A DNA stretch of 64,000 bases. It comes from an uncultured Alphaproteobacteria bacterium (lineage in GTDB: Bacteria; Pseudomonadota; Alphaproteobacteria; HIMB59; GCA-002718135). The position numbers and the translations under genes are program-made. The stretch lies in the NCBI GenBank assembly GCA_902560725.1, contig CACEMR010000003.1:32403-96402 (forward strand). Direction: 5' to 3'. How positions within the stretch are numbered: position 1 is the first letter of the stretch; every line of letters begins with the position of its first letter. This document shows, piece after piece, positions 6,789-64,000 of this stretch. The notes below the pieces were generated by a model, which saw only the letters and a list, made by a program, of their open reading frames with translations, was not told where the DNA came from and searched no databases.

Positions 6789-7841
6789 ATGAAGAAGATA
6801 AAGGGACCTGCTATTTTTTTGGCACAATTTGCTGATGATAAAGAGCCTTTTAATTCATTAAAGGGAATTTCAAAATGGGCTTCTGATTTAGGTTATAAAG
6901 GTGTGCAAATACCATCTTGGGATAGTCGTTTGTTTGATTTATCTAAAGCTGCAGAGAGTAAAGATTATTGTGATGAAATTAAAGGTGTTTTAAAAAATAA
7001 TAATATTGAATTAACAGAATTATCTACCCACTTACAAGGTCAGTTAGTTGCTGTTCATCCTGCTTACGATATTCCTTTTGATGGTTTTGCTCCTAAGCAA
7101 GTTAAGGGTAACCCAAATAAAAGACAAGAATGGGCATCAAATCAATTAATGATGGCAGCTTCTGCATCAAAAAATCTGGGATTAATAGCACATGCAACTT
7201 TTTCTGGCGCACTTGCTTGGCCTTACTTGTATCCATGGCCCCAAAGACCTACAGGTTTAGTTGATGAAGCATTTGATGAGTTAGCTAAGAGATGGATGCC
7301 CATATTAAATGCTTTTGACGATTCTGGTGTAGACTTATGTTATGAAATACATCCTGGAGAAGATCTACATGATGGTGTTACATTTGAAATGTTTTTAGAA
7401 AAAGTAAAAAACCATAATCGATGTAATATGCTTTATGATCCAAGTCATTTTGTGTTACAACATTTAAATTATCTCGATTATATTGATATATATCACGAAA
7501 AGTTAAAGATGTTTCATGTAAAAGATGCTGAATTGAATCCAACAGGAAAACAGGGAGTATATGGTGGATTTCAATCTTGGATTGATAGAGCAGGTAGATT
7601 TAGATCTCTTGGAGATGGACAAGTAGATTTTAAATCAATTTTTTCAAAACTTTCTGGTTATAATTTTAATGGATGGGCTGTTCTTGAATGGGAATGTTGC
7701 ATAAAGAGTCCGCAACAAGGCGCTCTAGAGGGAGCTAAATTTATAGATCAGCACATAATTGATGTAACAGAAAAAGCTTTTGATGATTTTGCAGACTCAG
7801 GGATGGACAAAGAAACTAACAAAAAACTCCTAGGTATTTAA
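6789..7841 (+). CDS. Sugar phosphate isomerase/epimerase (xylose isomerase-like TIM barrel)
   Basis: CYEIHPGEDLHDG, MLYDPSHFVLQ, MFHVKDAEL, WAVLEWEC. Confidence 0.88.
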   Translation: MKKIKGPAIFLAQFADDKEPFNSLKGISKWASDLGYKGVQIPSWDSRLFDLSKAAESKDYCDEIKGVLKNNNIELTELSTHLQGQLVAVHPAYDIPFDGFAPKQVKGNPNKRQEWASNQLMMAASASKNLGLIAHATFSGALAWPYLYPWPQRPTGLVDEAFDELAKRWMPILNAFDDSGVDLCYEIHPGEDLHDGVTFEMFLEKVKNHNRCNMLYDPSHFVLQHLNYLDYIDIYHEKLKMFHVKDAELNPTGKQGVYGGFQSWIDRAGRFRSLGDGQVDFKSIFSKLSGYNFNGWAVLEWECCIKSPQQGALEGAKFIDQHIIDVTEKAFDDFADSGMDKETNKKLLGI

Positions 7842-7850
7842 GGAAAAAAA

Positions 7851-9002
7851 TTGAAAAAAAGACTCAAACTTGGAATGATTGGTGGGGGACAAGGTGCTTT
7901 TATAGGAGCTGTTCACCGTCTTTGTGCAAGGATGGATGATAAATATGAATTTGTAGCTGGATGTTTGTCTTCTACACCAGAAAGAGCAACCACTTCAGCT
8001 AAAGAGATTGGTTTGGATTTATCTAGAAGTTACCCTGATTTTAAAACTATGGCTGAGCAGGAGTCAAAAAGAGATGATGGAATAGACGTAGTATCAATAG
8101 TTACTCCAAATCATATGCATGCAGAACCTGCAATAGAATTTTTAAATAAAAATATTCATGTAATATGTGACAAGCCTATGACTTCAACAATGGAAGATGC
8201 TCATAGATTAGTTGATGCAGTATCAGCTTCTGGTGCACATTTTTTTTTAACGCACAATTATTCTGGTTATCCAGTAGTAAGAGAAATAAGATCTCTAATA
8301 AAAAATGGTGAGATTGGCACTATTCGAATTATTAAAAGTTCTTACTTACAGGGCTGGCTTGGTTCCAAAGAAGAAGACTCTGGTGAAAATAAGCAGGCTG
8401 AATGGAGAACAGATCCTAAAAGAAGTGGTGTAGCTGGAGCAGTAGGTGACATTGGCAGTCATGCTATGCATTTAATAGAGTTTATTTCAGGCGAAAAATT
8501 AGAATCAGTTGCTGCAGATTTAACAACCTTCGTATCAGGTCGTAAACTTGAAGATGATGCATCTATAATGCTAAGAATGACAAATAATATAAAAGGCAAT
8601 TTATCTATTTCGCAAATAGCAACAGGTGAAGAAAATAATTTTAGATTATCAATATATGGAGATAAAGGATCTGTTCATTGGAAACAAGAAAACCCTAACT
8701 ATGCAACCTTAAGTAAGGTTGGAGTTACAAATCAAATTATAACAAGGGGTGGATCTATTAAACAAGAAGGTTCTTCATCTAACGTAAGAATACCGGCTGG
8801 ACACCCGGAGGGATACTTGGAGGCATTTGCTCAAATATATTCGGATGCTGCTGATGTAATTCAAAATAAAGAAAACAAATCAGAGTTGATAAAAATTCTT
8901 CCAAATATTGATGATGGGTTACAAATAATGAAATTTATTAATGCTAGTGTGGATTCGAGTAAAAATAATTCAGCTTGGGTTGATTTATCAACAATTAAAT
9001 AA
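7851..9002 (+). CDS. Gfo/Idh/MocA family oxidoreductase (TTG start)
   Basis: LKLGMIGGGQGAFIGAVHR Rossmann motif; IHVICDKPMTSTMEDA; VGDIGSHAMHLIEFISG. Confidence 0.92.
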   Translation: MKKRLKLGMIGGGQGAFIGAVHRLCARMDDKYEFVAGCLSSTPERATTSAKEIGLDLSRSYPDFKTMAEQESKRDDGIDVVSIVTPNHMHAEPAIEFLNKNIHVICDKPMTSTMEDAHRLVDAVSASGAHFFLTHNYSGYPVVREIRSLIKNGEIGTIRIIKSSYLQGWLGSKEEDSGENKQAEWRTDPKRSGVAGAVGDIGSHAMHLIEFISGEKLESVAADLTTFVSGRKLEDDASIMLRMTNNIKGNLSISQIATGEENNFRLSIYGDKGSVHWKQENPNYATLSKVGVTNQIITRGGSIKQEGSSSNVRIPAGHPEGYLEAFAQIYSDAADVIQNKENKSELIKILPNIDDGLQIMKFINASVDSSKNNSAWVDLSTIK

Positions 9003-9031
9003 TTAAATTAGCCCATGTTTTATGGGTATTT

Positions 9032-9058
9032 ATTAATATGCATTTTTTGCATATTAAT
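9032..9058 (+). terminator. Perfect 11-bp stem hairpin downstream of oxidoreductase
   Basis: attaatatgca-ttttt-tgcatattaat; preceded by cccat-gtttt-atggg at 9012-9026; no clear U-tract. Confidence 0.4.
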
Positions 9059-9110
9059 CTTTACAATTAAAAACTTACTAATTTTTAATATTAAACTATA
9101 TCAATAATTA

Positions 9111-9159
9111 CGTTCATCGCTTTAAAAAGCGACGGAAGTAAACGAAAGTTGAAGGAACG
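9111..9159 (+). promoter_or_regulatory. glnA-type glutamine riboswitch aptamer 1
   Basis: cgttcatcgctttaaaaagcgacggaagtaaacgaaagttgaaggaacg: P1 cgtt/aacg, P2 cgctt/aagcg, P3 aac-gaaa-gtt, conserved CGGAAGUA and GAAGGAACG. Confidence 0.85.
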
Positions 9160-9177
9160 CATGCAAAGTTATAAAAT

Positions 9178-9226
9178 CGTTCAATCTGCAAAAGCAGATC
9201 GGAAGTAGGTTTTAACCGAAGGAACG
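9178..9226 (+). promoter_or_regulatory. glnA-type glutamine riboswitch aptamer 2 (tandem)
   Basis: cgttcaatctgcaaaagcagatcggaagtaggttttaaccgaaggaacg: P1 cgtt/aacg, P2 atctgc/gcagat, P3 ggtt/aacc, same conserved core. Confidence 0.87.
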
Positions 9227-9313
9227 CGGATCTTATTAATTAATTTCCATAGCTAAGCATGATTTGAGCATGACTCAGGTGAGTCTTGTTGTGAACTTAT
9301 TATGGAGAATTAT

Positions 9314-10591
9314 ATGAAAAAATTTTCTTTTTTGAGTTTAATTTTAGGTTTTACTTTTGTTTCATCAAATGCATTTGCAGCTGTTGATCCTGAAGTATCT
9401 TATATTTTAAACACACTTTTATTTTTGATTGGTGGTTTTTTGGTTATGTGGATGGCAGCTGGTTTTGCAATGTTAGAGTCAGGACTTGTTACATCTAAAA
9501 GTGTTGCAACAATTGCAGCAAAGAATATCGGGCTATATTCCATAGCTGGTTTAATGTTTTGGTTAGTTGGATACAATTTAGCTTATGGTATTCCTGAAGG
9601 TGGTTTTATCGGAACATTTCTTCCTTGGAGTGATGCTAGCTCAATTGATACTGGGTATTCAGATGGCTCTGATTGGTTTTTCCAAATGGTATTTTGTGCA
9701 ACAACTTGTTCAATAGTATCTGGCACAATGGCTGAAAGGATTAAAATTTGGCCGTTCTTTTTATTTTGTGCAATATTAGCTGGCATTATTTACCCAATTG
9801 AAATGGGATGGCAGTGGGGTGGCGGTCACTTAGCAGCAGCTGGTTTTTCTGATTTTGCAGGATCAACACTTGTTCATAGTGCAGGTGGTGCTGCTGCATT
9901 AGCAGGAGCAATCTTACTTGGACCTCGTCTGGGTAGATTTGACTCAGATGGAGCAAAACCAATGGAACCATTTGCTAGTTCATCAATACCACTTGCAACA
10001 TTAGGTGTGTTTATCTTATGGCTAGGATGGTTTGGTTTTAATGGTGGATCACAATTAGCATTAGGTTCTTTTGAGGACTCAACTTCTGTTGCTACTATAT
10101 TCATTAATACTAATTTAGCTGCAGCTGCAGGTGTAATGGTATGTGCAGCTGTATCAAGATTAGTTGGTGGTAAAACAGATGTTGTAATGATGCTTAACGG
10201 TGCATTAGGTGGACTTGTGGCTATTACTGCAGAACCTCTTACACCTTCCCCAATTATGGCAATAATTATTGGCGGTATTGGTGGATTAGTTGTCTATTAT
10301 GGTACTTTATTATTAATAAGACTTAAAATAGATGATGTTGTTGGAGCTATTCCCGTTCATGGTTTTGCTGGTATTTGGGGTACGTTAGCTGTTCCACTTA
10401 CTAATTCAGGTACAAATTTTGGATCTCAAATTTACGGCATCTTATGGATCAATATATTTGTTTTCGTAGTTGCATTTATTGTTTGGTATCTAATGAAAAT
10501 AAGTATTGGAATAAGAATTAGTGAAGAAGCTGAAAAGCTTGGAACTGATAAAGCAGAAGTAGGCGTAATGGCTTACTCAATTCGTGATTAA
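9314..10591 (+). CDS. amtB: Ammonium transporter (Amt/Rh family)
   Basis: SDGSDWFFQMVFCATTCSIVSGTMAER, GGHLAAAGFSDFAGSTLVHSAGGAAALAGAILLGPR, VHGFAGIWGTLAV; signal peptide; GGAG ribosome-binding site before ATG at 9314. Confidence 0.96.
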   Translation: MKKFSFLSLILGFTFVSSNAFAAVDPEVSYILNTLLFLIGGFLVMWMAAGFAMLESGLVTSKSVATIAAKNIGLYSIAGLMFWLVGYNLAYGIPEGGFIGTFLPWSDASSIDTGYSDGSDWFFQMVFCATTCSIVSGTMAERIKIWPFFLFCAILAGIIYPIEMGWQWGGGHLAAAGFSDFAGSTLVHSAGGAAALAGAILLGPRLGRFDSDGAKPMEPFASSSIPLATLGVFILWLGWFGFNGGSQLALGSFEDSTSVATIFINTNLAAAAGVMVCAAVSRLVGGKTDVVMMLNGALGGLVAITAEPLTPSPIMAIIIGGIGGLVVYYGTLLLIRLKIDDVVGAIPVHGFAGIWGTLAVPLTNSGTNFGSQIYGILWINIFVFVVAFIVWYLMKISIGIRISEEAEKLGTDKAEVGVMAYSIRD

Positions 10592-55555: not shown

Positions 55556-55849
55556 ATGACTATATTTAAGAAAAATGTACTAGCCACGTTAATTGTCTTA
55601 GCTGGACTTGGCACTGCAGTTGGTGCTTATGCCCACAATACATCAGATACATCTTCTAGAGGTACAATGTTTGAAAGCATTGATACAAATAATGATAACA
55701 CCTTATCTTTGGATGAATATATGGAAACGATGCCTCAGTTTGTAGAAAATAGATTCAATCGCATGGATACGAATTCTGATGGAATTATATCTCTTGATGA
55801 ATTTAACCAATGTAAAAAAGGGAAAGGTAAAAGAAAGAGCAAATCATAA
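55556..55849 (+). CDS. Secreted EF-hand protein
   Basis: Signal peptide; DTNNDNTLSLDEYMETM and DTNSDGIISLDEFNQC EF-hand loops. Confidence 0.88.
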   Translation: MTIFKKNVLATLIVLAGLGTAVGAYAHNTSDTSSRGTMFESIDTNNDNTLSLDEYMETMPQFVENRFNRMDTNSDGIISLDEFNQCKKGKGKRKSKS

Positions 55850-55923
55850 ATCTTATTGGTCAATTGTATGACAGGGATTTATTTGGCTATTTAAATTATG
55901 AAGAATGATTTACAAATACCATT

Positions 55924-56472
55924 ATGCTTACCCAATCACCTTCTGATGTTAGTTTGCTCAAAGAAATACAAGGTGGAAATCATTCCGCCTTTAGTATCTT
56001 GGTAAATCGTCATACGACTAGATGTTATAATATGGCTTTTCGCTATCTACACAATCAGCAAGACGCAGAAGATATTGTGCAACAGGCATTTTTAAAATTA
56101 TGGAAAAATCCGCAAGCGTGGAAACCTGGGAAAGCTCAATTTACAACGTGGTTCACGCGTGTCATTATTAATTTATGTCTTGATGATCTAAAAAAACGAA
56201 AACCTCTATCTCTGCCCGATCAATTTGACATAGAAGATAGTTCAAAATTAGCGCTAGAAAATTTACTGGATGAAGAAAGACATCGTCTTGTAATAGCCGC
56301 CATTGATAAACTTCCCGAAAGACAAAAAACGGTCCTCATTCTTTGCTACTTTGAGCAGCACTCCAATAAAGAAGCAGCAAACATATTAGAGACAACGGAG
56401 AGAGCAGTGCAATCGTTATTACTAAGAGCAAAAGAATTTCTAAAGAAACAATTAAATATTTCAAAATTATGA
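55924..56472 (+). CDS. ECF-type RNA polymerase sigma factor
   Basis: AFRYLHNQQDAEDIVQQAFLKLWKN region 2, LPERQKTVLILCYFEQHSNKEAANILETTERAVQSLLLRAKEFLK region 4. Confidence 0.93.
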   Translation: MLTQSPSDVSLLKEIQGGNHSAFSILVNRHTTRCYNMAFRYLHNQQDAEDIVQQAFLKLWKNPQAWKPGKAQFTTWFTRVIINLCLDDLKKRKPLSLPDQFDIEDSSKLALENLLDEERHRLVIAAIDKLPERQKTVLILCYFEQHSNKEAANILETTERAVQSLLLRAKEFLKKQLNISKL

Positions 56473-56488
56473 TAGGAAGTAAGACATA

Positions 56489-56821
56489 ATGAAAAAAGAA
56501 AATGATAATAAAGCTATCAATGATTTGCTAAGCAAACTTGAGGTAAAACCTCACGGTGAAGATTTAGCCAGCTCTATCATTAATCAGGCAAAACAAATAA
56601 AGCAGCAAAAATCATTCATTTATTATCTTCAAGATGTCATCGAAGGACTGAGTGATAATTTTTATTTACCCTCACCTCGTTTTAGTATGGCCATGTTTAT
56701 TCTTGTTGGTTTTTTGAGCGGCGTTATTGTTTCAGATTTATCTATTGAGAGTGAGCAACTATCTATTTTTGATGATAACTTTACCACCGAAGTTTTCTTT
56801 GATGAGGATTTCTCTCTATGA
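56489..56821 (+). CDS. Small single-TM protein, putative anti-sigma factor
   Basis: Directly after ECF sigma; cytosolic N-terminal region plus one TM (FSMAMFILVGFLSGVIVSDL). Confidence 0.6.
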   Translation: MKKENDNKAINDLLSKLEVKPHGEDLASSIINQAKQIKQQKSFIYYLQDVIEGLSDNFYLPSPRFSMAMFILVGFLSGVIVSDLSIESEQLSIFDDNFTTEVFFDEDFSL

Positions 56822-57267
56822 AGTATTCAAAATATATTTTAACTATTTCCGTTGCTCTTAATCTTCTCTTGATTGGGTATCTTGTTGGCACCCAATCTAT
56901 GAATATATTTTCCACCAAAGAAAAGCAGGGTAGTAAAAATCGTATGATCAATATTATTAGTGAGGCAGATTTATCCAATGATCTAAAAGAGGAATTTATT
57001 AACCGTTTCAGTGATTTACAATTCTCTAAACGTCAAAATTCTAAAAATGAAATGAAAACTTGGAATGATGAAATGCGGGACACCCTCACAGCTGATCAGT
57101 TTAATGCTGAGTCTTACCGAATTTTATTAGAAACTCGTTCAATGTTTTTTGCCACTAATCAACAAAAGGCAATTGATACCATGGTTGATTTACTCAGCGT
57201 GCTATCAAAAGAGGATCGAATTAAAATGTCAAAAATTTTACTTAGAAATTTGAAAAAAAAGAAATAA
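56818..57267 (+). CDS. Membrane-anchored periplasmic sensor-like protein (CnrX/CpxP-like)
   Basis: N-terminal TM then helical region with RMINIISEADLSNDLKEEFINRF...ALETRSMFFATNQQKAIDTMVDLLSVLSKEDR-like pattern; ATGA overlap with upstream gene. Confidence 0.55.
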   Translation: MKYSKYILTISVALNLLLIGYLVGTQSMNIFSTKEKQGSKNRMINIISEADLSNDLKEEFINRFSDLQFSKRQNSKNEMKTWNDEMRDTLTADQFNAESYRILLETRSMFFATNQQKAIDTMVDLLSVLSKEDRIKMSKILLRNLKKKK

Positions 57268-58172: not shown

Positions 58173-59225
58173 TTAATTGATACTTAAACCTGCAGGACAA
58201 TCTGTATTAGTTAAATCATAATACATAATTCTTCCCTTTACCCCTGATCTTTTTTCTGCTTCAAAATACAGTCCATAACAATTTTTATGACAATAAAAAA
58301 TTGATTGTGATTGGTTAATAATTTTTTTAACACTATTATTTTCTTGTAAAATATTTTCCTTTATTAGGGTTCCTTCTAAAGTATGACAAATATCATTCCC
58401 AAAGATTAATTTTTCATATTTTTCTATTGTAAATTTAATAGGCATGCCGACAATTTTTTTCCCATTGGTATCCAATCGCTGAACCCACTTATCTTTACTT
58501 ATTTTATATATTTCGCCTGAAAAACAATTCAGCAAATCCCAGGCAAAGGTGGATTTAACATTATAAAAATAATTATTATTAATATCAAACATGCCTCGGC
58601 ACTCATCGAGTAATGTTTCAATATTATTGTTCTCATCAAACCAACCAATTGCTAAAATTGGATAACCATCTTTTGCATACCCAATCGGTCTTTTTTGATT
58701 TTCAATAAAATCATAGCCAAGGTCTTCAATTAAACAATTAGGTGCAATATGATAATGATAATCATCGCCCCGCCCAGCATGACCACCGCATTCATCAAGT
58801 TCTCCTTGATCTAGTGCCGTTGACCGTTTCCCTGATGCATCTTGGGGGCCTTGAGTTTGGGGATCAAATAGGGGGACGCCGTTTATTGCAATCCCAATTG
58901 CCCCCGGTTCAGTTTGTATTTTTGAAGATGAAAAGTTTTGTTTGAGAGGAATGGTAATTTCATAATTATGTTCAGTGGGAAATTGTTGGTTTGAGCCTTT
59001 TATTCCAACCATTAAGGTATGAGATGGATGAGGTAATCCATTTGATTGAAATTGAACATTTTGATTATTGCATTTTAGGGATGATACTTCTTCGGTATAG
59101 CATGCCTCTTCACAACGACAATCATCAATCGAAATATTGTGCGCAACAAGTGTTGGGGAATAAAAAATACAAAAAAATAAAAGTATTTTTATACACAAAA
59201 GAAATTTGTTAATCTTTAGAAACAT
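58173..59225 (-). CDS. Secreted YHYH-domain protein
   Basis: Signal peptide; GDDYHYHIAPNCLIEDLGYDF, PIGYAKDGYPILAIGWFDE; Cys-rich N-terminus (CRCEEACYTEEVSSLKC). Confidence 0.82.
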   Translation of the reverse strand: MFLKINKFLLCIKILLFFCIFYSPTLVAHNISIDDCRCEEACYTEEVSSLKCNNQNVQFQSNGLPHPSHTLMVGIKGSNQQFPTEHNYEITIPLKQNFSSSKIQTEPGAIGIAINGVPLFDPQTQGPQDASGKRSTALDQGELDECGGHAGRGDDYHYHIAPNCLIEDLGYDFIENQKRPIGYAKDGYPILAIGWFDENNNIETLLDECRGMFDINNNYFYNVKSTFAWDLLNCFSGEIYKISKDKWVQRLDTNGKKIVGMPIKFTIEKYEKLIFGNDICHTLEGTLIKENILQENNSVKKIINQSQSIFYCHKNCYGLYFEAEKRSGVKGRIMYYDLTNTDCPAGLSIN

Positions 59226-59496: not shown

Positions 59497-60591
59497 ATGT
59501 TTTACAGAATATATCTAACCATTCTTTTTTGTTTCTCTTTATTAATGAGCTCTCCGTCATTTTCCGAAACTTACGAATGTCAAGCATCGGATCCTGAAGG
59601 CAACTACCTTGATTATCTTAATGAATTTGCCGAACTTGTAGATGATTTAACGGACGGGGAAGTAGAATTTGAATTTGTAGCTGCTGGATCATTAGTAAAA
59701 ACAAATCAAATATTAGATGCTGTTCATTCAAATGAAATTCCTTGCGGTGTATCCTATACTCATTATTGGGATAAAGAACATCCAGCCGCAATGTTATTTG
59801 GTTCACCAATAGCAGGAGCTGGATTAGGGATTGATAATATTTCATTTTATTCTTGGTTTATGTATGGAGGTGGTGAAAAACTTTACAACAGGTTGTGGCG
59901 TGAAATGGAAAGAGATGTTGTTGGTTTTTATATAGCCCCTTTTGGTCCTGAAGCTTTGGGATGGTTTACGGAACCAATTGCGTCAATGGATGATTTTCGT
60001 AATAACGTTGAAGCCTATAGAGCGCCTCCTGGTCTTCCAGGAAAAACATATAGTGATGTCGGAGTAAATGCGGTCACTATGGGTGCCAAAGATTTATTAC
60101 CAGCATTGGAACAAGGGATTATTGACGCTGCTGAATGGTGCTGCCCTGCACCTGATAGAGAGTACGGTATTGCAGAGGTGTTGAAACATTATTATTTGCA
60201 AGGTTTGCATCAAGTAGTCGTCAATGGTGATCTTATCATTAACAAAGATGTCTTTAAAGATATGGACAAGCAACATCAACTCGCAATTGAAACCGCAGCT
60301 CAGGCATCTTTAATGAAATTTATTTCAATGCGTATATATGACAATGGTAAAGCATTGCAAAAACTTCAAAAAGATGACGGTATTGAATTGCACGATACCC
60401 CTGATGATTACTTTACCGAATATTCCGCAGCAGCGTATAAAAATATTCAAGAACTAAAAAAAACTAACAATTTCTTTGCTGAGGTTTACGACTCTATGGA
60501 AAAATTTGCAAAAATTGCTGTTCCTTTTTGGAGTAATGCACAGCTATCCAATGCCAAGCTTGGAAAAGCTTACGCTGATACACTCGAATAA
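59497..60591 (+). CDS. TRAP-type solute-binding protein, DctP/TakP-like
   Basis: Signal peptide; AYRAPPGLPGKTYSDVGVNAVTMGAKDLLPALEQGIIDAAEWCCPAPDREYG. Confidence 0.9.
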   Translation: MFYRIYLTILFCFSLLMSSPSFSETYECQASDPEGNYLDYLNEFAELVDDLTDGEVEFEFVAAGSLVKTNQILDAVHSNEIPCGVSYTHYWDKEHPAAMLFGSPIAGAGLGIDNISFYSWFMYGGGEKLYNRLWREMERDVVGFYIAPFGPEALGWFTEPIASMDDFRNNVEAYRAPPGLPGKTYSDVGVNAVTMGAKDLLPALEQGIIDAAEWCCPAPDREYGIAEVLKHYYLQGLHQVVVNGDLIINKDVFKDMDKQHQLAIETAAQASLMKFISMRIYDNGKALQKLQKDDGIELHDTPDDYFTEYSAAAYKNIQELKKTNNFFAEVYDSMEKFAKIAVPFWSNAQLSNAKLGKAYADTLE

Positions 60592-60690
60592 AGAAATATT
60601 TAACAATAATTATCTTGAAGAATTATATGCTTAAGAGAAATAGTATTAATTAATATATTCTATGTTATGATATTCTTCTTATAACAAGAT

Positions 60691-61899
60691 ATGCAAAGAT
60701 TACTTTTTATAATTACATTACTTTTTAGTTTTCACGTTTTTGCTGAATTTACGTTTATTGATAACGTAAGCGAAACAGATGAAAAACAAAATAGATTATA
60801 TAATTTACTCTCAGCGGATCAGTGCGATGAGCTCTATGACACCATCAGTTTTAAAAATAAAGTTATATCGAATACGGAAATAAAATATTTTAAATTTATA
60901 GATTTTATAGAGTTAGATCCTAAGAAACTTCAGTTTTCTGCAAGTTTTGCAGAACAGGCTTTCAAATTTTCTTCTAATGAAGTTACTTCAGCCTTATTTG
61001 ATTTTAAATCATTTGATTTAACAACCTTAAAAATATTCAGAGATATTGATGCTCTGGTTAAATCTGATAATTCTGAAAGAGTTATTTGCTCTTATGATTA
61101 TGGTCAATCAACTCAAAATAAATTTCCAACATTAGGTGTATCCATAAATAATGCACTCCAACTTCCTCAAGCTATATCTAATGATCGTATAAATATTTAT
61201 TCAGATGGATCGATCGAATATCTATTTCTTAATCATAAGTACAATTTGTTAAAATCTGATTTCAATCTAAGAATGTTTCCTTTTGATAGGCATAAAATAA
61301 TTATTAATTTTAAATACAACGTTGGAGAAAATGTAAAATTTACTCCTTCTCAAGAATTTGTTGATACGTGGGTAATAGAGGATGAAAATAACTTTAATAA
61401 TATCACGGTTCCAAATTTTACAATTGAAAAAGCGGAATTTAAAAATATTAACTCTGATTTAAATCAACAAGTAAGACTCGAATTTAATCTTCTTAGAATT
61501 TATAATTCTTTTTTTTATACAACGATATTGCCAATGTTATTAATTATAATTTGTACTTGGTTTATTTATTTAGCTCAGACAGAGCAGTCAAGATTTTCAA
61601 CAACAACTGGAAGTATATTTGCAATTATTGCTATTAATTTAACAGCCTCAAATTCTTTGCCAGAGCTATCTTATAATACACTTTATGATGTATTTTTTTT
61701 AATTTGTATTAGTTCTGTACTATTCACAGTGTCAGCACTAATAATTACCATTAAAATTTCTCAAAGAGGTTATGATATCAATAAAATGCATAACTCATTA
61801 ATTATTATTCACCCATTACTAGTCATAATTATTGGCTTACTTATTATAACGAATATATACCCAGATTTTGTAAATATGCTTTTTGAAATATTAATATAG
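60691..61899 (+). CDS. Prokaryotic pentameric ligand-gated ion channel (Cys-loop receptor family) homologue
   Basis: Signal peptide; NLRMFPFDRHKIIINF (FPFD loop), FYTTILPMLLIIICTWFIYL (M1), STTTGSIFAIIAINLTASNSLPELSYNTLYDVFF (M2 and M2-M3 loop), M3 and C-terminal M4. Confidence 0.87.
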   Translation: MQRLLFIITLLFSFHVFAEFTFIDNVSETDEKQNRLYNLLSADQCDELYDTISFKNKVISNTEIKYFKFIDFIELDPKKLQFSASFAEQAFKFSSNEVTSALFDFKSFDLTTLKIFRDIDALVKSDNSERVICSYDYGQSTQNKFPTLGVSINNALQLPQAISNDRINIYSDGSIEYLFLNHKYNLLKSDFNLRMFPFDRHKIIINFKYNVGENVKFTPSQEFVDTWVIEDENNFNNITVPNFTIEKAEFKNINSDLNQQVRLEFNLLRIYNSFFYTTILPMLLIIICTWFIYLAQTEQSRFSTTTGSIFAIIAINLTASNSLPELSYNTLYDVFFLICISSVLFTVSALIITIKISQRGYDINKMHNSLIIIHPLLVIIIGLLIITNIYPDFVNMLFEILI

Positions 61900-61936
61900 T
61901 TTTGATTTTTTTTGATTAAAATATAGAATTAAATAA

Positions 61937-62872
61937 ATGAAATTTTTTTTAATAATAATTAGCGTCTTTTTTTTCTCAAACGCTTTTGCCGATGGAAATA
62001 AACTCATTGTACTCGGCGCAGCTCCAACTTCAGGATCGTATTGGCCTGTTTCCAATAGTGTATGTAACGCAGTTAATCTTGATAAAATATCACATAAATT
62101 TCGATGCTTACCCTCAGTGACAGGAGGGTCTGTTTATAATATAAATGGTGTTTTACAAGGTGAGCTTGATGTAGCTTTAACAAAAGCTCATATTTTACAT
62201 GAGCAATATAATGAAACTGATGATGGTAAATCTCTTCGCATGATATCTAATCTTTACAAAGAACCTGTTTTTATTGTGGTCAAAAAAAATGGTCCAATAA
62301 AAAGTTTTGATGATATACAAAATACAACTTCCATTAACATTGGAAATTTAGGATCTGGTAAAAGAGTAGTGGCAGATAAAATATTTGACATTATGAATTG
62401 GAACACAGAAGATTTCACAAATACTTTTGACTATACAACAAATGAATCCATGAGAGCTTTTTGTAATAATGAATTAGATGTTATGATAGAGGCAGTTGGT
62501 CTGCCAAATGCTAATTATGATTACTTAGCAACAGAATGTGATGCAACATATATTGATCTAAAACAAAATATAATTGATTCTTTTACTAAAAATCCCTTTT
62601 ACACAGAATATTCTATTCCTACTGAAATTGCTTTCAATAATATCAATCCAGTAAAAACTGTTAATTCTAATATTGTTCTATTTACAAAAAAGGAAAATTC
62701 TAATGAGATGATTTACTCATTAGTTTCTTCATTAATCTCCAATTTTGAAATTTATAAGGGCAGCTTACCTCTTTTATCACACTCTACCCTAGAGTATTAT
62801 AGTCAAGAATCAATATTAACACCTTTACATGAGGGTGCAGATAAATTTTACCGTGAATATTTCTCCAATTAA
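61937..62872 (+). CDS. TAXI family TRAP-type solute-binding protein
   Basis: Signal peptide; VLGAAPTSGSYWPVSNSVCNAVN, RCLPSVTGGSVYNINGVLQGELDVALTKAHILHEQYN. Confidence 0.9.
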   Translation: MKFFLIIISVFFFSNAFADGNKLIVLGAAPTSGSYWPVSNSVCNAVNLDKISHKFRCLPSVTGGSVYNINGVLQGELDVALTKAHILHEQYNETDDGKSLRMISNLYKEPVFIVVKKNGPIKSFDDIQNTTSINIGNLGSGKRVVADKIFDIMNWNTEDFTNTFDYTTNESMRAFCNNELDVMIEAVGLPNANYDYLATECDATYIDLKQNIIDSFTKNPFYTEYSIPTEIAFNNINPVKTVNSNIVLFTKKENSNEMIYSLVSSLISNFEIYKGSLPLLSHSTLEYYSQESILTPLHEGADKFYREYFSN

Positions 62873-62887
62873 CCTTATAATGAAGTT

Positions 62888-64000
62888 ATGAAAATTATTT
62901 TTTCTTTTATTTGTATAAGTATTTTTCTTTTTGGTTGTCAGTCCTCTACATTACAATCAAAAAAAAATACATTAGAGCTTCAAAATAAAAATTTAGTTAA
63001 TAATACATCACAAAATCCTCAAGTTGCCTACTTAATTAAAGAAGGTTTAGAGTTAATTGACAAAAATGATTTAAATAATGCATCTAAAACATTTAACGCA
63101 GCCCTTCAACTGGATATGACTAATTCTCATCTCCAATTTCTAAATGCCAATACTTACCATGTAATGGCTTTACAATATGATTCGTCTTATTTTGATTTAG
63201 CTATTGAGGGATACAAATTATCTATCAATTTAGATAATACTAATTGGTATCCTCGATATTATTTAGGTTTGTTATATTTAGATAAAAAAGACTATTTATC
63301 CGCCCAAGACTATTTAGCAGATGCACTTTTATATAATACGGAAGATCCAGACATTATATATAATTTTATTGTTGCCTCTTATTATGCTCATGATCCCATT
63401 AGTGCTGCTGGTGGTGTAGAACTTCTTCAAACTATAGAACCCAACAGTGAAAGACTGGCTAGAGTGGCATCAATGGTGCATTCTTCTTTAGATAATCAAG
63501 AAGAGGTCAATTATTGGCTGTCCAGTTTTTCTCTTAAACCTGATGATCCCATCTTAGGCAGAAGTCAGGATTGGAAAAATTTTTACCAAAGAATTGAAGA
63601 TAATTTAATTATAAATGCCAGTGATACAATCGAAGAAAGCAACGATAATGGAGACATAGATAATCAAAATGAAACTGTCTCATCGGACTCAAGTGGACTT
63701 TTTGATGAAGAAGACGACATGTTAATTGCTGATGTTGTCATTGTAACTTCGGAGGATAAACAAATTGACTCCACGGGTGTCAATTTACTCAGCGGTCTTA
63801 CTCTTCAACTTGGAGATGGTACATCAGATGCATTTAATCTTGTTGATACAGGTGATGTTAATGCAGATAGCACAACGACAATTACTAGAAGATTAACTAT
63901 TCCTTATATAACTTACACGTTAAATATTATTAATGCGCATACAGAAAGAAGTGAAATTTTAGCACGACCAAGTTTGGTGGCATCGGAGGGAATTCTATCG
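62888..64000 (+). CDS. TPR lipoprotein with secretin-like C-terminal region, truncated by window edge
   Basis: Reading frame open for 371 codons to the window end, absent from ORF track; lipobox FLFGCQSS; TPR-like region; ...RSEILARPSLVASEG typical of secretin domains. Confidence 0.75.
   Translation, partial: MKIIFSFICISIFLFGCQSSTLQSKKNTLELQNKNLVNNTSQNPQVAYLIKEGLELIDKNDLNNASKTFNAALQLDMTNSHLQFLNANTYHVMALQYDSSYFDLAIEGYKLSINLDNTNWYPRYYLGLLYLDKKDYLSAQDYLADALLYNTEDPDIIYNFIVASYYAHDPISAAGGVELLQTIEPNSERLARVASMVHSSLDNQEEVNYWLSSFSLKPDDPILGRSQDWKNFYQRIEDNLIINASDTIEESNDNGDIDNQNETVSSDSSGLFDEEDDMLIADVVIVTSEDKQIDSTGVNLLSGLTLQLGDGTSDAFNLVDTGDVNADSTTTITRRLTIPYITYTLNIINAHTERSEILARPSLVASEGILS

Follow-up and report, generated by a model that had tools for sequence, protein, structure and literature searches.

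Why should two solute-binding proteins of the tripartite ATP-independent periplasmic (TRAP) transporter type, neither of them beside a permease gene, be encoded on either side of a pentameric ligand-gated ion channel (pLGIC)? The question is raised by a locus at the right-hand end of the 64,000-nucleotide stretch of DNA analyzed here (the window), which comes from an uncultured alphaproteobacterium. An earlier note on this stretch had answered it by proposing that the binding proteins present ligand to the channel, forming a periplasmic chemosensory ion-flux module. The observation behind this proposal was confirmed: the DctP/TakP-like, pLGIC and TAXI genes have the coordinates, strand and common orientation assigned to them, with gaps of 99 and 37 bp, and no DctQ or DctM gene adjoins the trio, leaving both binding proteins without a permease gene. 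We could extend it by one gene, previously unmentioned, which follows the TAXI gene in the same direction after 15 bp and encodes a lipoprotein combining tetratricopeptide repeats (TPR) with the start of a secretin domain. The locus reads as follows:

59497 to 60591, forward strand: permease-less solute-binding protein of the DctP family (TakP-like, keto-acid type); 364 amino acids with a signal peptide; PF03480, 8e-25
60592 to 60690, forward strand: gap between the DctP and pLGIC genes, 99 bp; wide for the genome, with room for a separate promoter
60691 to 61899, forward strand: homolog of prokaryotic pentameric pLGICs; 402 amino acids with a signal peptide; recognized by a match to ELIC, the Pro-loop and a predicted model
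61937 to 62872, forward strand: permease-less solute-binding protein of the TAXI family, 311 amino acids; member of a secretin-linked TAXI clade, with K83 and K142 in the ligand site
62888 to 64000, forward strand: TPR-secretin lipoprotein with an FGC lipobox, up to the start of the secretin domain; 371 residues present, cut by the contig end

We consider it fairly probable that this locus is a composite, in which the TAXI and TPR-secretin genes are a conserved core and the pLGIC and DctP genes are accessory neighbors. The interpretation given in the earlier note was partly supported, and the locus is not demonstrated to be a binding-protein-gated channel.

The TAXI protein and its secretin-linked relatives

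The TAXI protein matches its family in both PF16868 (3e-51) and TIGR02122 (170 bits against a cut-off of 84), and its gene is the sole TAXI gene in the assembly. The genome comprises 1.43 Mb in 47 contigs and is 90% complete, and all negative results for permeases cover the assembled part. A search of this part for permease partners, which the earlier note had suggested, yielded two TRAP loci with a DctM gene, on contigs C14 and C44, each beside its own DctP gene (making the window copy the third DctP of the genome), and no fused TAXI-type permease. We regard the orphan status of both binding proteins as strong but not final; in the relatives G036 and G037 a TAXI permease adjoins the TAXI gene.

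In a class-wide search with the TAXI protein, three genomes of a single family came out on top with 36-38% identity and E-values of 1e-63 to 1e-65, compared to about 1e-50 for the rest, and a fourth genome gave a partial match. The four nearest relatives (in G270, G438, G163 and G359; 35-39% identity) are all permease-less, and at all four loci the TAXI gene is directly followed by a homolog of the TPR-secretin gene and then by a gene for a secreted pentapeptide-repeat protein. The fourth gene of the window is 33-47% identical to these homologs, depending on the segment, and the TAXI and secretin genes share 4 bp in G438 as well as in G163, with 3 bp separating them in G270. When the flanks of 29 TAXI loci were compared, a secretin was found in the three nearest, DctQM in 24 and neither in 2, and in the TAXI tree the window protein and the three intact secretin-linked TAXIs formed a clade with support of 100/99. 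The locus in G163 (L187, contig C18, 4395-12054) is a six-gene operon with 4-bp overlaps encoding a Cache membrane protein, a Cache-HAMP-MFS fusion, an ABC_sub_bind protein, the TAXI protein, a TPR-secretin that carries a LysM domain, and the pentapeptide-repeat protein.

The linkage to a secretin is accompanied by changes in the ligand site. In VcGluP, Q93 and Y45 are the main determinants of glutamate binding, and mutation of Q93 lowers glutamate affinity 990-fold (PMC11574862). The column of Q93 holds glutamine in all 21 permease-linked TAXIs, in contrast to R, R, R and K (K83 in the window) in the secretin-linked four, which also uniformly carry lysine in the column of D157 (K142 in the window); the equivalents of Tyr45 and Ser75 are retained in the window protein as Y35 and S65. 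Compared to the VcGluP-VcGluQM TAXI-TRAP system, with which it shares the fold family and these two retained residues, the window protein thus differs in the two lysines and in having no fused permease. These changes indicate a coherent subfamily of secretin-linked TAXIs, probably with a more anion-seeking character.

The right edge of the window is the end of contig C3, and the window copy of the TPR-secretin is cut where the secretin domain begins; PF00263 is seen in the intact homologs. Over 347 residues the window protein is 35% identical (9e-61) to the intact TPR-secretin of L186, which matches PF00263 at 1.7e-30. The intact G438 homolog has 641 residues, with TPRs at about 129-213, a linker and PF00263 at 399-554, and it scores to PilQ and GspD in the barrel and to PilW in the TPR part, all far below the cut-offs. 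Such proteins share PF00263 with the PilQ, GspD and MshL secretins, in contrast to which, and to TPR pilotins such as PilW and Tgl, they unite the TPRs and the secretin in a single lipoprotein; the intact homologs gave no match to the Pfam N-domains (STN, Secretin_N). No pilus or type II secretion genes, including a companion ATPase or platform protein, were recognized at the five loci, the whole genome not having been searched for them. All other contig ends were read and none carries the rest of the window gene, indicating that the remainder lies in an assembly gap; by analogy with the four related loci, a pentapeptide-repeat protein gene would be expected just past the contig end. No relatives of the TPR-secretin were found in viral contigs. 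The same TPR-secretin architecture was seen on a plasmid of Asticcacaulis sp. AND118 (L194, NZ_CP084912.1, 8827-10476), with no TAXI gene beside it and among secreted proteins of unknown family.

In the most likely reading, the TAXI protein and the secretin lipoprotein act together. In the mechanism that we propose, the TAXI protein, freed from the TRAP permease, would bind an anionic solute in the periplasm and, liganded or empty, dock on the TPR part of the outer-membrane secretin; its ligand state would then open the secretin pore, or the protein would capture solute that the pore admits. The pLGIC would work like its relatives and may merely share the transcript, and DctP would be a TakP-type protein that lost DctQM and is probably sensory or scavenging.

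Several points weigh against this mechanism. Only five TAXI-secretin loci are known, the window included, and the other four come from one family outside the order of the window. Frames are interrupted in two of these, in both TAXI and secretin in G359 (L188, about 7140-10020) and in the secretin in G270 (L185, 8289-10128), where decay and assembly error are not distinguished. In the window the secretin is truncated, with neither its barrel nor the pentapeptide gene seen, and its predicted model is usable only for the TPR part and poor elsewhere (pLDDT, the predicted local distance difference test, 48). The 37-bp gap between the pLGIC and TAXI genes fits co-transcription of pLGIC, TAXI and secretin. 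Finally, whereas the gene content and order, the TAXI-secretin pairing, the clade and its site changes were observed, the docking and gating steps and the ligand are inferred.

The TAXI-secretin gene pair looks new, as no description of it was found in the literature searched (open-licence papers). TAXI proteins were long thought to be limited to fused TRAP permeases until work on TAXI-GltS systems showed partner switching (PMC12344293, 2025). As in those systems, the window TAXI has parted from the TRAP permeases and is linked at the gene level to a membrane protein of a different kind; in contrast to them, the partner is a TPR-secretin lipoprotein and not a sodium/glutamate symporter, and the ligand-site glutamine is replaced by lysine or arginine. 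GltS does not adjoin the window TAXI, whose neighbors are the pLGIC and the TPR-secretin; no search for it extended to other parts of the genome. If the reading is true, a TAXI clade tied to a secretin, with a basic residue in place of the glutamate-binding glutamine, would be a case of a further and more surprising partner, and a soluble solute-binding protein would be cooperating with an outer-membrane pore.

The DctP protein and the coherence of the locus

The best relative of the window DctP in the PDB is a ketoacid-binding protein (7ug8, 6.5e-33). Ten DctP orthologs were examined, from four genus mates and six other alphaproteobacterial genomes (52-59% identity), and DctM adjoins all ten, mostly as DctQ-DctM or fused DctQM. 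The only copies without DctQM are the window DctP and that of G058, which group together in the tree with support of 98/99, the program giving a long-branch warning. Their branch lengths are 0.86 (window) and 0.80 (G058), compared to 0.01-0.18 for the ten DctQM-linked orthologs. Both permease-less proteins retain the ligand arginine R175, invariant in the alignment, as well as E213/W214. The fast evolution suggests that the permease constraint is gone, and the simplest reading is that this constraint was lost while the binding site was kept. With the TakP-type DctPQM transporters of alphaproteobacteria the window DctP thus shares its ligand arginine, in contrast to which it has no adjoining DctQ or DctM and evolves several-fold faster.

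Beside the TRAP operon of the DctP orthologs lies, at L148, L149, L052, L053, L055 and L151, a gene resembling GMC-type oxidoreductases as judged by its N-terminal sequence, a possible hint to the substrate of the clade to which the window DctP belongs. In G058 (L051, contig C2, 5320-10428) the permease-less DctP gene points away from the genes for a DUF3047 protein and a hybrid histidine kinase, with a SpoIIE-type phosphatase, an anti-sigma-like protein and type IV pilus genes in the surroundings. No relatives of DctP were found in viral contigs.

The best placed of the alternatives to a composite locus, and still an improbable one, is plain juxtaposition of unrelated envelope genes, with DctP using a DctQM permease encoded in the tenth of the genome that is missing from the assembly or cross-docking to the C14 or C44 permease. 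That the contig ends at the locus in a genome 90% complete favors it, as does the small number of relatives carrying any of the four genes, and the GC content, highest in DctP (37.4%) and 26.0% in pLGIC, is compatible with different histories. However, the C14 and C44 permeases have DctPs of their own, and between the C14 DctM and the permease serving the window DctP's orthologs the identity is only about 32%. Sharing of the C14 permease was rejected, the window DctP being 27% identical to C14's own DctP. Juxtaposition by chance is also contradicted for at least one pair by the recurrent linkage of TAXI and secretin, the fast evolution of DctP suggests a lost permease constraint, and G058 has a second permease-less copy.

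The spacing of the genes is uneven. Co-directional gaps in the window have a median of 5 bp, with 71% of them at most 37 bp and 93% at most 99 bp, and the 99 bp between DctP and pLGIC is among the wider gaps of the genome. A promoter scan of this gap gave a single 9-of-12 match (60631-60659) in an AT-rich stretch, which is uninformative and no evidence of a promoter. The pLGIC, TAXI and TPR-secretin genes, with gaps of 37 and 15 bp, could be one transcript.

The channel and its neighbors in other genomes

The pLGIC, one of the rare relatives in bacteria of the neurotransmitter channels of animals, matched ELIC-type channels by phmmer (8e-13) and the NCBIfam family LGIC_1 at 7e-11, under the family cut-off, and had no match in Pfam. 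A predicted model, modest in quality (pLDDT 57 overall, 76-86 across most of the transmembrane part), retrieved sTeLIC, ELIC and DeCLIC by Foldseek at 7e-15 to 1e-13. The signal peptide is followed by an N-terminal stretch of about 55 residues of unknown structure, the ligand-binding beta-sandwich (about 80-269) and transmembrane helices at 272-294, 298-320, 331-358 and 363-389. The FPFD Pro-loop (P197-F198-D199), the pre-M1 arginine R269, P281 in M1 and P324 between M2 and M3 are invariant across nine aligned homologs. The beta-sandwich, four helices, Pro-loop and pre-M1 arginine of the pLGIC family are thus all found, here from sequence and model, and the protein probably forms an ordinary homopentamer of the prokaryotic type, with a chemosensory role of its own. 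A binding-protein domain fused to the window channel was rejected, only the approximately 55 N-terminal residues being unexplained.

No ortholog of the channel was found in 37 genus mates (36 plus one 96%-complete genome), nor among 60 relatives, 387 genomes of the class and 399 of the phylum, and the pairing in the trio was seen once. Any pLGIC at all was found in three other genomes of the class sample and seven of the phylum sample, and close relatives were detected neither by peptide patterns in genome and viral contigs nor by tblastn in plasmids. Two distant pLGICs, 29% and 22-23% identical, occur in the genus mate G011; at L056 (G011, contig C22, 2721-8831) a pLGIC with a long N-terminus is followed by a DUF805 membrane protein, with a Sel1/caspase-domain protein encoded a few genes upstream.

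Next among the alternatives comes a larger envelope-spanning system, which we consider unlikely, in which one or both binding proteins would occupy the periplasm, the TPR-secretin would sit in the outer membrane and the pLGIC would serve as the element of the inner membrane. It is favored by the close spacing (37 and 15 bp) and common direction of the genes from pLGIC through secretin, and it has a parallel in G163, where ABC_sub_bind, Cache-HAMP-MFS and Cache proteins precede TAXI, secretin and pentapeptide-repeat protein with 4-bp overlaps, much as DctP and pLGIC precede TAXI and secretin in the window. However, the other four TAXI-secretin loci lack a pLGIC, and at three of them no membrane protein is encoded directly upstream in the same direction. 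The fuller version, in which solute binding by TAXI (and DctP) jointly sets the gating of the secretin and the ion flux through the pLGIC so that both membranes are spanned, is the most doubtful possibility that we considered.

The proposal of the earlier note, that DctP, TAXI or both present ligand to the pLGIC, has several points in its favor. Both binding proteins are permease-less, they keep or consistently change their ligand-site residues, and the gene order suits it. Tasneem et al. (2004) described fusions of bacterial pLGICs with binding proteins and conserved operons with type II periplasmic binding proteins and proposed exactly such a cooperation in chemoreception (PMC549065). In the class of G451, probably Magnetococcia, pLGICs occur in 27 of 48 genomes, and 18 of the 24 pLGICs scanned carry a fused Peripla_BP_6 domain, N-terminal in the members displayed. 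Within this class, G478 and G560 (loci within L092-L121) have two pLGIC genes side by side. At L076 (G451, contig C20, 4503-10013) the gene immediately after a pLGIC gene encodes an orphan PhnD-like binding protein and the one after that a PAS hybrid histidine kinase, and this locus is a better candidate than the window for a sensory operon of binding protein and pLGIC.

The evidence closer to the window points the other way. The domains fused to pLGICs are of type I, neither DctP nor TAXI. The pLGICs of the same order (L056, L057 and L083) have no binding-protein neighbor among the genes profiled, and seven further pLGIC loci, several of them cyanobacterial, have no recognizable one among the listed, unprofiled open reading frames. 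In G439 a TRAP operon lies about 3 kb from the pLGIC, but it was discounted, as unrelated genes separate the two. The neighborhood comparison that had been suggested as a check thus gave no support: recurrent binding-protein neighbors are absent for this trio and present only among pLGICs as a whole. In addition, the conserved partner of TAXI is the TPR-secretin, DctP orthologs serve ordinary DctQM, and the gap between DctP and pLGIC is wide. Ligand delivery by these two proteins to this channel is therefore the least probable of the three alternatives, although the general association of periplasmic binding proteins with pLGICs does recur.

Nor is the general idea new, since the linkage of binding protein and pLGIC and the idea of chemoreception were published in 2004 (PMC549065); the earlier note, which saw in the trio its best candidate for an undescribed system, applied a published idea to a new gene pair. 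Like the operons of Tasneem et al., the window places a pLGIC beside a transporter-less periplasmic binding protein, whereas the pairing in those operons is conserved and that in the window is not, and the window proteins, which flank the channel on both sides, are of the TRAP type (DctP and TAXI). For the question of what bacterial pLGICs do in nature, the locus offers a concrete, testable case of a channel encoded among permease-less binding proteins.

Surrounding genes

The window genes profiled outside the locus (a sample) are chromosomal housekeeping genes, and no tRNA and no Rfam match were found, on which grounds an origin from a mobile element or phage was rejected. The DctP gene is divergent, over a 271-bp AT-rich gap, from a gene for a YHYH-domain secreted protein (58173-59225; PF14240, 3.5e-18). 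Further upstream, at 55556-57267, lies a row of genes for an EF-hand secreted protein, an ECF-type (extracytoplasmic function) sigma factor, a small membrane protein and a Metal_resist (CpxP/Spy-like) protein, which has the look of a small operon for envelope stress or metal response.

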